Shown: positions 33,449 to 37,538 of the stretch, piece after piece
How positions within the stretch are numbered: the first letter of the stretch is position 1
Layout: each line of letters opens with the position of its first letter
Assembly (NCBI RefSeq): GCF_035987325.1
Contig: NZ_CP108488.1
Coordinates: 4,464,001 to 4,528,000, forward strand
Direction: 5' to 3'
DNA length: 64,000 bases
Source of the DNA: Streptomyces sp. NBC_01244
GTDB lineage: Bacteria > Actinomycetota > Actinomycetes > Streptomycetales > Streptomycetaceae
The notes under the pieces: model-generated
Told to the model about the DNA's origin: nothing
Seen by the model: the letters and a program-made list of their open reading frames with translations, nothing else
The model's database searches: none
Made by a program: the position numbers and the translations under genes

Positions 33449-34870
33449 TCAGCCCACCACCCTGCCGATCAGGTAGACCGCCGGAGCGGCCGCGGCCAGC
33501 GGCAGCGCGACACCGGCCGTCATGTGGACGAACTTCGACGGGTAGTCGTACGCCGCCACGCGCAGCCCGATCAGCGCGCACACCCCGGCCGCCAGGCCGA
33601 TCAGCGCACCGCCCGCTCCGACGGACGTCAGCCCGCCCACGGCGATGCCCGCACCGGCCGCGGCGGCCAGCGAGACGCCGACCGAGGGCGCGGTGGGCAG
33701 CGGGAGCGCCCGGGCGAAGACGGCCACCGCCACGGCGGCGGCGCCCACGCTCACGGCGGCGGAGTCGGCCGCGAGGTAGCCCGCGCAGACGATGGCCAGC
33801 GCGGCCGAGGCCACCGAGGCCATCAGCCCGTACATCCGCTCGTCCGGCTCGGCGTGGCTGCGCAGCTGGAGCACCAGCGTCAGCAGCACCCAGGCACCGA
33901 GGGTGCCGATGATCGCGCCGGGGCCGTACGGCTCGTCCACCGCGAGCACGGCCACATCGGCGACGACCGCCCCGGCGAAGGCCAGGGCGATGCCCTGACG
34001 GGCCGGCCACATGCCGTTGAGCCGGAACCAGCCCGCCGCGGTGAGGCCCTGGAGGGCGATCAGGGGCGCGAGCAGCGCGTACTCGCTCAGCGCGGCGGAG
34101 GCGGCGATGACCAGCCCGAGAGCGGCCGTCAGTATGGCCGCCTGCGGACCGGGATCGATGATCGGAGAGCGGCCTTCGGCGCGGGCCTGGGCCGGGTCCA
34201 CGGCGCGCAGCGTGTTGCCGGCGAGGGTGGGCGGCGACCAGGCGGGCTCCTCCTCGGCCGCGCCGGTGGCCACCCCGGCGGCCGCCGCGTCGGCCACCGC
34301 CGGGTCCGCGGCGGGAGACCCGCCCGGGGCCTCGGCCGCCTGCTGCGGGAGGTACGGGTCGGACGGGCCGGGGTAGGCGGGCGGGTACGCCGTCTCCCCC
34401 CACGGCTGTGGGGACTCGCCCTGCCCGGCCGGCCCGGCCGGCCCGGCCGGCCCGGCCGGCCCGGCCGGCGGGGCCTGCTGCGCCGGCGCCTCGTCGCGGA
34501 ACCAGTGGTCCGGGGCCGCGGGCTGCGGGTAGGCCGGAGCGGCGTACGGATCCGCGTAGGGGTCCGCGTACGCCTGCTGCTGCCCCCACTCCTGCCCGGA
34601 GACGGGCGCCTGGGCCTGCGGCTGGGCCGGAGCCGGAGCCTGCGGCTCCTCGCGGAACCAGCCCTCGGGGGCGACCGGGTACTGCGCCGGTACGCCGTCC
34701 AGCGGCACCTGCACCGGCTGGTACGAGGTGTCCCACGTAGGGGACTGCCAGGTCTGGGTCCCGTAGGGATCCGGCTGCTGCAGTTGTTCCTGCTGTTGCT
34801 GCTGCTCCAGAAACTGCTGTTGCTGCTGCTGCTGTAGCTGTTGCTGCTGCTGTTCCTCAGGCGTGCTCAT
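33449..34870 (-). CDS. Poly-Gln multi-span membrane protein
   Basis: The protein has 473 residues. Residues 1-32 are almost pure Gln with Leu/Glu interruptions, and 33-215 are Pro/Ala/Gln-rich and disordered with a (PAG)n collagen-like run near 136-148. Residues 240-473 hold about nine or ten membrane segments. The segments contain YALLAPLIALQGLTAAGWFRLNG and a Leu/Ala/Gly-rich core with no transporter motif I recognise. It is divergent from nothing nearby and followed leftward by the LmeA-like gene. The poly-Gln tract is coded by CAG/CAA repeats. Confidence 0.82.
   Translation of the reverse strand: MSTPEEQQQQQLQQQQQQQFLEQQQQQEQLQQPDPYGTQTWQSPTWDTSYQPVQVPLDGVPAQYPVAPEGWFREEPQAPAPAQPQAQAPVSGQEWGQQQAYADPYADPYAAPAYPQPAAPDHWFRDEAPAQQAPPAGPAGPAGPAGPAGQGESPQPWGETAYPPAYPGPSDPYLPQQAAEAPGGSPAADPAVADAAAAGVATGAAEEEPAWSPPTLAGNTLRAVDPAQARAEGRSPIIDPGPQAAILTAALGLVIAASAALSEYALLAPLIALQGLTAAGWFRLNGMWPARQGIALAFAGAVVADVAVLAVDEPYGPGAIIGTLGAWVLLTLVLQLRSHAEPDERMYGLMASVASAALAIVCAGYLAADSAAVSVGAAAVAVAVFARALPLPTAPSVGVSLAAAAGAGIAVGGLTSVGAGGALIGLAAGVCALIGLRVAAYDYPSKFVHMTAGVALPLAAAAPAVYLIGRVVG
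34425..34472. repeat. Perfect 9-bp tandem repeat coding (PAG)n
   Basis: Five units of CCGGCCGGC type lie inside the disordered part of the membrane protein gene. A second simple tract of CTG/TTG triplets (34774-34858) codes the poly-Gln start. Confidence 0.9.
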
Positions 34871-34880
34871 GGGGCTCCGC

Positions 34881-35135
34881 TCACCCGCCCGCGAACGGCG
34901 GGAGCACCTCGACGGTGCCCCCCTCGGTCAGCTCGACGGAATCGTGCGGGCGCTTGCCCACGGGCTCTTCGTTCACGAGGAAGGAGCAGCGCAGCAGGAC
35001 CCGGGTCAGCTCCCCGGGGTGGCGTTCCCGCACGGTGTCGAGCGCCTCGGCCAGTGTCCGCGCCGAGTACGGCTCCTCCGCCGTCTTGGCCGCGGCCTTC
35101 GCCGCCGCCCAGTAGCGGATGGTTCCGGTTGCCAC
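34881..35135 (-). CDS. MoaD/ThiS-family sulfur carrier
   Basis: The protein has 84 residues with the ubiquitin-like fold, TIRYWAAAKAAAK start, FLVNEEPVG strand, and the C-terminal Gly-Gly that becomes a thiocarboxylate. In Streptomyces such stand-alone proteins serve molybdopterin or other sulfur transfers. The partner E1 enzyme is not in the window. It is divergent from glnR with about 400 bp between. Confidence 0.9.
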   Translation of the reverse strand: MATGTIRYWAAAKAAAKTAEEPYSARTLAEALDTVRERHPGELTRVLLRCSFLVNEEPVGKRPHDSVELTEGGTVEVLPPFAGG

Positions 35136-35349
35136 TGCACGCTCCTCTCGTCGGCGCTCTGCCGTCGGCCTCCATCATGAACCCTCGCGCCCCCGATCCC
35201 GGCGTGCCTCCGCGCGCCCCTCGTGCGCCCAGGCGGCCCCCACCGGGCCCACCGATCCGGTGAAACCGGCGCATATGCAGGTGGCGGGGGTGGTGGGAAC
35301 CACAGAAGTGGAACGCTCCGAAGCCTCGGCCCCGCCGGGGCGGGTGGGC

Positions 35350-35397
35350 TATTCTGCTGGCGAGAGGATCCGGGCAACGTAGCCCCCGGGTCCTTTT
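35350..35397 (+). promoter_or_regulatory. glnR leader: possible -10 box and terminator-like hairpin
   Basis: TATTCT at 35350-35355 is a possible -10 box. At 35365-35374 AGGATCCGGG pairs with CCCGGGTCCT at 35385-35394 (one U-G wobble), followed by TTTT. This is an intrinsic-terminator shape pointing toward glnR. No gene on the plus strand ends just before it, so it could be an attenuator or a 5'-end stability element. The moaD-like gene is on the other strand. Confidence 0.55.
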
Positions 35398-35535
35398 GTG
35401 CTTTCAGCACGTTGAACGGACCGAGAACAGTGGTATCCATCCGGACCTCAGGGCGCGGGGACCGGACGGACACAGGCAAGTCGTACGAAGCAGTGCCGCG
35501 AAAGTCCTCGACGGGACCGAGGAGGAACCGACGTG

Positions 35536-35667
35536 ATGGACCAGCGAACCGTCGTGCAAGTGCAGGTGCGGGCAGAGGTACAGGCGCACGCACCTGCGCA
35601 CGCACACCACCAGCACCACCAGAACCACCAGTACCACCGTCCGACCCGGGTGGGTGGTCGGGCATGA
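35536..35667 (+). CDS. Gln/His-rich upstream ORF coupled to glnR
   Basis: The ORF has 43 codons. It has a strong ribosome site GGAGGAA (35521-35527) eight bases before its ATG, better than any before glnR. The peptide contains 7 Gln and 8 His, mostly in [13 protein letters not shown] (residues 22-34). Its TGA overlaps the glnR ATG (ATGA), a classical coupling arrangement. Low-complexity composition could mean a non-functional peptide whose translation matters rather than its product. Confidence 0.65.
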
Positions 35668-36434
35668 GCTCACTCCTGCTCCTGACCAATGCCCTGCAGC
35701 CCTCGACCGAGGTGCTGCCGGCCCTCGGCCTGCTGCTCCACAGCGTCCGGGTGGCCCCCGCCGAGGGCCCCGCCCTCGTGGACACCCCGGGCGCCGACGT
35801 GATCCTCGTCGACGGCCGCCGCGACCTGCCCCAGGTGCGGTCGCTGTGCCAGCTGCTCCGCTCCACGGGGCCCGGCTGCCCGCTGATCCTCGTCGTCACC
35901 GAGGGCGGCCTCGCGGCCGTCACCGCCGACTGGGGCATCGACGACGTCCTCCTCGACACCGCGGGACCGGCCGAGGTCGAAGCGCGGCTGCGCCTCGCCA
36001 CCGGCCGCCAGCAGCTCGGCTCGGACGACTCCCCGATGGAGATCCGCAACGGCGACCTGTCGGTCGACGAGGCGACGTACTCGGCGAAGCTGAAGGGCCG
36101 GGTCCTGGACCTGACCTTCAAGGAGTTCGAGCTCCTCAAGTACCTGGCCCAGCACCCGGGCCGGGTCTTCACCCGCGCGCAGCTCCTCCAGGAGGTGTGG
36201 GGCTACGACTACTTCGGCGGCACCCGCACGGTCGACGTGCACGTACGGCGTCTGCGCGCGAAACTCGGGCCCGAGCACGAGTCGCTGATCGGTACCGTCC
36301 GCAACGTCGGGTACCGCTTCGTCACCCCGGAGAAGGTGGAACGGGCGGCGGCGGAAGCGGCCGCGCAGGCGGCCACGAAGGCGGCGGCCGAGGCCTCCGC
36401 GCGGGCCGCCGCGGCACTCACCCGGATGGACTAG
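35664..36434 (+). CDS. glnR: GlnR, global nitrogen regulator
   Basis: Orphan OmpR-family regulator of glnA, amtB, nirB and other nitrogen genes in Streptomyces. The protein has 256 residues. The receiver-like domain starts [12 protein letters not shown] and has Asp50 but lacks the full acidic pocket, as known for GlnR, which is not controlled by simple Asp phosphorylation. The winged helix is at about 130-225 ([19 protein letters not shown]...[11 protein letters not shown]). The C-terminal tail is Ala-rich. The start codon overlaps the stop of the upstream ORF and has only a weak ribosome site of its own. Confidence 0.95.
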
Positions 36435-36515
36435 GGGGCCTGCGCGAAGGCTGTGGGAATGACCTCCTCCGGACGCCCTGCCCAGAGGTAGGTCACCCCG
36501 CGTAGACTTCCGCGC

Positions 36516-37538
36516 GTGGCCAAGGTGACGCGGGATGACGTGGCACGACTTGCGGGTACTTCTACCGCCGTCGTGAGCTACGTCATCAACAACGGACCCA
36601 GGCCGGTTGCCCCGGCCACGCGCGAGCGTGTCCTCGCCGCGATCAAGGACCTGGGCTACCGCCCGGACCGGGTCGCCCAGGCGATGGCCTCACGCCGCAC
36701 CGACCTCATAGGCATGATCGTCCCCGATGCCCGCCAGCCGTTCTTCGCGGAGATGGCGCACGCGGTCGAGCAGGCCGCCGCCGAGCGCGGAAAGATGGTG
36801 CTGGTCGGCAACTCCGACTACCGCACCGAGCGCGAGGTCCACTACCTGCGGGCCTTCCTCGGCATGCGGGTCTCGGGCCTGATCCTGGTCAGCCAGGGCA
36901 TGAGCGAGCAGGCCGCCTCCGAGATCGAGGCCTGGGACGCCCGCGTGGTCCTCCTCCACGAGCGCCCCGAGGCCATCGACGACGTCGCCGTCGTCACCGA
37001 CGACATCGGCGGCGCGCAGCTCGCCACCCGGCACCTCCTCGAACACGGGCATCCGTACGTGGCCTGCCTGGGCGGCGTCGAGAGCACCCCCGAGGTCGGC
37101 GACCCGGTGGCCGACCACGTCGAGGGCTGGCGGCGGGCCATGCTCGAATCCGGCCGCTCGGTGGAGGGCCGCCTCTTCCAGGCCCCGTACAACCGCTACG
37201 ACGCGTACAAGGTCGCCCTGGAGCTGCTGGCCGGACCGGACCGCCCGCCGGCGATCTTCTGCGCTACGGACGACCAGGCGATCGGCGTCCTGCGCGCCGC
37301 GCGGGAGCTGCGCATCGACGTGCCCGAGCAGCTGGCGGTGGCCGGCTTCGACGACGTCAAGGAGGCGGCCCTGACGGACCCGCCCCTCACCACCATCGCC
37401 TCGGACCGCCCGGCGATGGCCCGCGCCGCGGTGGACCTCGTCCTGGACGACGCCCTGCGGGTGGCGGGCTCCCGGCGCGAACGCCTGAAGCAGTTCCCCT
37501 CGGCCCTGGTCATCCGCCGCTCCTGCGGCTGCCGCTAG
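36516..37538 (+). CDS. LacI-family transcriptional regulator
   Basis: The protein has 340 residues. The helix-turn-helix is at residues 4-25 ([23 protein letters not shown]) with the hinge helix after it, followed by a periplasmic-binding-protein-like effector domain ([33 protein letters not shown]). The GTG at 36516 is the start. The ligand is unknown; adjacent genes do not encode sugar catabolism. It ends CGCR, where three-residue Cys pairing is of unknown meaning. Confidence 0.92.

Follow-up and report, generated by a model that had tools for sequence, protein, structure and literature searches.

Organization of the glnR leader region

The gene glnR and its leader were analysed on the plus strand of the window, which is the whole stretch of 64,000 nucleotides from Streptomyces sp. 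NBC_01244. The protein product of 35664-36434 is GlnR (PF21695 GlnR_1st, 2e-44). The features of the locus are as follows.

35350-35355, plus strand: TATTCT, predicted -10 box of the glnR promoter, based on its spacing to the hairpin in relatives
35362-35397, plus strand: conserved leader hairpin, based on fold z-score, models R1 and R2, covariation and the G-U to A-C ratio of 62:0
35365-35371 with 35388-35394, plus strand: hairpin helix P1, extended to 35362/35397 by G-U and A-U pairs
35372-35375 with 35382-35385, plus strand: hairpin helix P2
35376-35381, plus strand: hexaloop
35386-35387, plus strand: bulge
35394-35405, plus strand: U-rich tail of terminator type, TTTTGTGCTTTC, with the conserved GYGYUU, based on the T content of 153 copies
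35519-35525, plus strand: GAGGAGG, Shine-Dalgarno (SD) sequence of the upstream open reading frame (uORF), equivalent to the own SD of glnR in 32 relatives that have no uORF
35533-35667, plus strand: uORF, start GTG 35533 or ATG 35536, stop TGA 35665-35667, with its frame kept in 71 of 71 uORF loci
35605-35638, plus strand: 9-bp tandem repeat CACCACCAG, 3.8 copies, encoding a Gln/His-rich stretch
35649-35657, plus strand: weak SD-like GGTGGGTGG before glnR
35664-36434, plus strand: glnR, 256 aa, Pfam GlnR_1st and Trans_reg_C

The uORF stop overlaps the glnR start codon ATG (35664-35666) by 4 nt, as ATGA. A first-pass annotation of the window had reported a hairpin followed by TTTT (35394-35397), an ORF of 43 codons at 35536-35667 with 7 Gln and 8 His residues whose stop overlaps the glnR start, a strong ribosome site before this ORF and a weak one before glnR, and all of these are present. 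It had also pointed out that the terminator-shaped hairpin comes before the ORF, unlike the order in a classic attenuator; this is correct for the window (35362-35397 and 35533-35667), and the same order was found in relatives.

One further ORF in the window (473 aa, 33449-34870, minus strand) carries long poly-Gln runs at its start (MSTPEEQQQQQLQQQQQQQFLEQQQQQ...); Pfam gave no match for it.

Structure and conservation of the leader hairpin

The minimum free energy (MFE) of 35362-35401 is -20.7 kcal/mol, a value equalled by none of 200 shuffles (z = -3.81). The structure of the whole 313-nt leader is not unusual (z = -0.20). A simple terminator scan of the window did not have 35362-35397 among its calls, for which the 2-nt bulge may be the reason, and terminator-like hairpins scanned across the 64-kb window did not yield a clear base rate.

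Covariation was evaluated in 49 aligned matches (48 distinct), in an alignment fitted to the model, which is a bias in its favour. On the sense strand, 96.4% of the cells pair. Changes on both sides of a pair were found in 24 cells in five pairs, compared with 0-3 in slid structures. These 24 cells and the covariation score were each reached by 0 of 500 shuffles; the number of pairs with both-side changes (reached by 49 of 500) and the number of pair types (reached by 39 of 500) do not go beyond the shuffles. By the first two measures, covariation in this model-fitted alignment exceeds the controls, as expected of a conserved structured RNA. The alignment contains 62 G-U cells and no A-C cells, an asymmetry that a DNA palindrome would not yield and that indicates that the hairpin acts as RNA. 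In P2, two pairs out of four are invariant across the 48 distinct sequences, as is position 4 of the loop, and the hexaloop G is conserved.

In 153 distinct hairpin copies chosen by pattern, the MFE ranges from -17.0 to -32.3 (mean -20.3). The T content of the tail in these copies is 95, 98, 92 and 78% at positions 1-4, and 96 and 99% at positions 9 and 10, respectively. The hairpin therefore has the stable GC-rich stem and the direct U-tract of an intrinsic terminator, with a U-tract that is weak outside Streptomycetaceae, where the mean is 4 T of 8 and a GYGYTT-like sequence is kept in 22 of 29.

A known family was sought in Rfam release 15 and none was found: the window hairpin had no match, five sub-threshold matches lay elsewhere in 34800-36600 (best E 0.55), and five distant glnR loci gave one sub-threshold match (isrL, 18.4 bits, cut-off 35) on the opposite strand. 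A pseudoknot between loop and tail was rejected by reasoning only; P1 intervenes, and loop and tail seem not to covary.

Distribution of the hairpin

The gene glnR is present in all 41 related genomes. The hairpin was found in the leaders of 25 Streptomyces loci, and a version whose bulge is one base longer was found in five loci from a different family of this order. The whole-hairpin pattern precedes glnR in 105 of 105 Streptomycetaceae loci, which consist of sets of 25 and 80 loci with 102 distinct glnR sequences, so that a few genomes are present in both sets. The hairpin is thus conserved across Streptomyces, a comparison that the first-pass annotation had proposed.

The covariance model R1, built from 13 Streptomyces sequences, scores the glnR locus of the window genome at 67.1 bits; no other site in that genome exceeds 28.3 bits. 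R1 matches 118 of the 119 genomes of the order, the sole miss being G039, though glnR is present there; in genomes of the order outside the genus, 14 of 14 matches are located upstream of glnR. At E 0.01, R1 matches 44 of 197 class genomes, 28 of which lie outside the order. In 21 of these 28, the match shares its strand with the GlnR protein match and is 16-112 bases upstream of it; in the other seven it is away from glnR and has at most 32 bits. A broader model, R2, was used for the wider search of class and phylum. It matches 93 of 394 class genomes, counted irrespective of position relative to glnR for the added genomes, and among 198 phylum genomes it has only weak matches (at most 32.5 bits) in eight genomes outside the own genus. 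Matches of either model away from glnR (at most 32 bits in the class and 32.5 bits in the phylum listing) were read as chance. This distribution ties the hairpin to glnR and to one part of the class.

Among ten class genomes with glnR and no R1 match, G040, G146 and G159 show P1-like arms with longer inserts; so does a further genome, G243, whose weak R1 match is located elsewhere. By eye, only a P2-like remnant was recognised in G150 and G161, and nothing convincing was recognised before glnR in G143, G148, G152, G153 and G157.

In four loci (L188, L199, L205 and L211) the bulge is enlarged by insertions, the shortest about 9 nt and the longest above 60 nt, and P1-like arms are kept; two others (L202 and L207) show by eye a P2-like remnant only.

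Position of the hairpin at the promoter

Each of the 153 distinct copies has a TA...T hexamer 7-13 nt ahead of the hairpin's first GGA, and in 114 it is exactly 10 nt ahead. The window hairpin lies 10 nt behind the TATTCT box; a consensus scan of the window gave no sigma-70-type promoter. The gap between hairpin and glnR varies from 16 nt (class genomes) to 301 nt, and from 67 to 301 nt within Streptomycetaceae. The near-fixed spacing to the -10 box, together with the variable spacing to glnR, suggests that the hairpin acts at transcription or at the 5' end of the RNA. If transcription starts as predicted, 6-8 nt past the -10 box, the hairpin would occupy about +1 to +36 of the transcript.

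Start sites of glnR were mapped by Wray 1991, according to PMC10704036, and transcription start site and ribosome-profiling data of S. coelicolor have been published (PMC4895711). A glnR construct of S. venezuelae, the protein product of which was detectable, starts with GTGGGCTATTCTCCT, 264 bp upstream of glnR (PMC3087709). This start is at the predicted -10 box; transcription driven by the vector is also possible.

The upstream open reading frame and its probable coupling to glnR

The uORF was identified in 71 of the 105 Streptomycetaceae loci, behind GAGGAGG (AGGAGG in L109). An uORF was counted when it ended at most 40 bases from the glnR start, and no locus was left over with an ORF ending elsewhere. 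The overlap with glnR is 4 nt in 70 of the 71 loci (63 ATGA and 7 GTGA) and 1 nt in one (L100). There are 17 distinct uORF lengths, from 17 to 44 codons (in the window, 43 aa from ATG and 44 aa from GTG). All 71 end in frame at the glnR start with distances of 2 mod 3; by chance, each independent length would fall in this frame one time in three. Loss of the frame among close relatives, named in the first-pass annotation as a result that would speak against its ORF, was looked for and did not occur.

The remaining 34 loci have no uORF. In 32 of them GAGGAGG precedes the ATG of glnR by 9 or 10 nt, and in L056 and L101 a related AGGAAGGA site lies directly before glnR. In the 71 uORF loci, the SD of glnR is GGCAGGTGG in 39, AGGTGG in 5 and neither in 27; a few of these 27, e.g., L019, L025, L038 and L066, show a GGAGG- or GAGGAG-like site. 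Two features of reinitiation systems are thus found here, a strong uORF SD with a weaker SD of the main ORF, and an in-frame overlap of stop and start across species.

The uORF peptides have similar ends (MGERTVHD... and ...AGGxR) and a free middle. The 3' ends are similar partly because they hold the ribosome site of glnR. Genes of Streptomyces usually have a higher GC content at third positions than the 0.71 of the uORF. At least eight changes between uORF and no uORF were found on the glnR tree, six of them forced by well-supported branches, which indicates that the uORF is dispensable; transfer from strain to strain might move it as well. As judged from sequence comparison, the coupling is kept, the peptide is not, and the entire uORF can be lost.

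An unrelated uORF of 23 aa with a GTGA overlap with glnR was found in L179 and L186 (genus g50, family f19), which are 2 of 45 leaders outside Streptomycetaceae. The coupling apparently arose there independently.

Pairing of UCCUCG with CGAGGA (35505-35523) could cover half of the SD of the uORF; the pattern is present in 84 of 105 loci and absent in 21. A stem covering the SD is not claimed here, and compensatory support for it was not found.

From its ATG, the window uORF contains 7 Gln and 8 His, i.e., 15 of 43 residues, and its Gln/His-rich stretch corresponds to the 9-bp repeat CACCACCAG. Among 66 distinct uORF peptides, only those of the window and of Streptomyces sp. TBY4 (3 Gln and 6 His) are Gln/His-rich; no other peptide exceeds 4 Gln or 3 His, and that of the near relative L002 has 1 Gln and 3 His. 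A conserved Gln/His content, which the first-pass annotation had suggested looking for, was therefore not observed. The richness is that of a local repeat. Judged by conservation, the hairpin and the ORF frame go beyond chance, and the Gln/His content does not.

Possible functions of the leader elements

Two separate cis elements, a promoter-proximal terminator or pause hairpin and a reinitiation uORF, are proposed with moderate confidence to set the output of glnR. From the predicted start, RNA polymerase would transcribe the hairpin first. The hairpin would most likely be a promoter-proximal intrinsic terminator or a hairpin pause, i.e., an attenuator without a leader peptide, and only a fraction of the initiated transcripts would reach glnR. 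The uORF probably takes the strong ribosome site and passes ribosomes to glnR by termination-reinitiation at the overlap, and its peptide sequence would hardly matter. The earlier proposal that the ORF gates translation of glnR is kept in the form of coupling by the overlap (4 nt in 70 of 71 loci), which is its likeliest reading; the part concerning tRNA-Gln and tRNA-His is not.

The two next-best R1 matches in the same genome bear on the terminator type. L112 is located 22 nt behind an ORF stop and has the tail CCTTTCGTGTG. L113, on the minus strand, follows a tRNA-Thr gene of the same strand at a distance of 47 nt and has the tail CCTTTTGCGTG; it also closely follows an ORF stop of the opposite strand. 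Both look like ordinary terminators at expected terminator sites, which supports the terminator type of the glnR hairpin. They are more stable than the glnR hairpin by about 10-12 kcal/mol (L113 folded on the plus strand). This weaker stem and the poor U-tract outside Streptomycetaceae argue against a terminator, and the hexaloop G and the GYGYUU tail exceed what a terminator needs. Antiterminator pairings were sought by eye only; no alternative was found, and the short pairings seen are not conserved. For the uORF, the low GC content at third positions and the repeated gain or loss weigh against the proposal.

The hairpin could instead be a stabiliser of the 5' end that blocks 5'-end-dependent RNases and involves no termination. 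All 153 copies have the hairpin a few nucleotides from where the transcript is predicted to begin, and the stability of the stem is maintained, both of which are consistent with such a role. Conservation of the U-rich tail, the invariant hexaloop G and the inner P2 pairs would be left unexplained, and this explanation, although a serious competitor, is considered unlikely.

A more doubtful explanation, likewise a serious competitor, is that the hairpin is a sensor or part of one, in which a protein or a small ligand reporting a nitrogen signal binds P2, the hexaloop or the tail and sets termination. The two P2 pairs and the loop position that never vary point in this direction, as do the P2-like remnants seen by eye in two genomes without visible P1 and the P1 arms kept where insertions fill the bulge. 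However, the hairpin is only about 40 nt long, a mutually exclusive partner helix was not found, Rfam gave no match, and slow evolution of the promoter-proximal stretch could mimic the conservation of P2 and loop. It is similarly doubtful that the 5' hairpin of glnR represents an undescribed, very small class of regulatory RNA (about 40 nt) that responds to a nitrogen or energy signal via early termination or pausing. If so, it would add an input to the GlnR network besides the promoter and protein modification.

A role as a DNA operator, an inverted repeat bound by a regulator of the glnR promoter, would fit the site at the promoter and the reported binding of PhoP and AfsR to the glnR promoter region of S. 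coelicolor (PMC10704036), but is very improbable given the G-U asymmetry and an arm spacing that varies by insertions of one to dozens of nucleotides. Almost no credence is given to the first-pass view of the uORF as a Gln/His codon sensor or metal-binding peptide gating glnR, which drew on the 15 Gln and His residues of the window, because this content is not shared even by the near relative L002, comes from a repeat in an uORF missing from 34 of 105 loci, and stands behind the hairpin rather than before it.

Comparison with known leader systems

The pyrG leader of B. subtilis has a terminator close behind the start site and no leader peptide, and is tuned by slippage on a G-run at the start. 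The glnR leader resembles it in the early, terminator-type hairpin and the lack of a leader peptide, and has no visible G-run at its predicted start.

In the uPPE2-ppe2 system of Mycobacterium tuberculosis, a short uORF with an SD overlaps by AUGA a main ORF without an SD, and experiments have shown that it works mainly by termination-reinitiation (PMC11260477). The glnR locus is similar in its SD-bearing uORF, AUGA overlap and structured RNA upstream. In uPPE2-ppe2, however, a B12 riboswitch governs access to the uORF SD (PMC11260477), whereas glnR has no known aptamer and its hairpin sits by the promoter and not by the SD.

Actinobacterial leader genes also consist of a short ORF next to the start of the structural gene; special codons are not needed and reinitiation raises translation (PMC4833913). 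The survey of these genes covered non-overlapping ORFs only, with a peak at 10-11 bp, whereas a 4-nt overlap is the rule at glnR.

The leader-peptide attenuators of trp, ilv and leuS in Actinobacteria share with glnR a GC-rich hairpin, a U-run and a short ORF (PMC1262725, PMC8079986). The glnR leader differs from them in its reversed order, in the lack of conserved regulatory codons and in that no antiterminator was found. Neither a conserved ORF rich in regulated codons (66 distinct peptides) nor a terminator downstream of the ORF, as in leader-peptide systems of the trp/his type, was found at glnR.

Implications for glnR regulation

A sigma-E promoter of sco4159 has been predicted via ChIP-seq in S. 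coelicolor, 16 bp from the start codon; glnR is not among the 17 S1-mapped genes given in that source (PMC6767563). Of 295 genomes of the genus, six contain the printed promoter sequence, in each case inside a uORF reading MGERTGHDHKPSQAGGAR and 16 bases before glnR. The exact sequence is absent from the genome of the window. The uORF is present in the six genomes with the published sequence of the S. coelicolor glnR promoter region. Stress transcripts from the predicted sigma-E promoter may skip the hairpin and the uORF start.

The sigma-E promoter sites are in L227-L232 (and L123, from the same genome as L231), and the equivalent in the window is at about 35543-35570.

Literature on a leader RNA or uORF of glnR was not found among the matches listed, in which subscription papers are little covered. 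Based on Rfam and these matches, the leader RNA is apparently undescribed; it is kept in part of the class, and the example is new while the kind is known. The coupled uORF is real but replaceable.

In actinomycetes, nitrogen regulation centres on GlnR, which also has a bearing on antibiotic production; the route by which the nitrogen state reaches GlnR is understood only in part, as far as PMC10704036 and general background indicate. Both the hairpin and the ORF have the appearance of genuine control elements. With a hairpin at the predicted mRNA start of glnR in many families and a coupled uORF behind it, expression of this regulator would have two control points.
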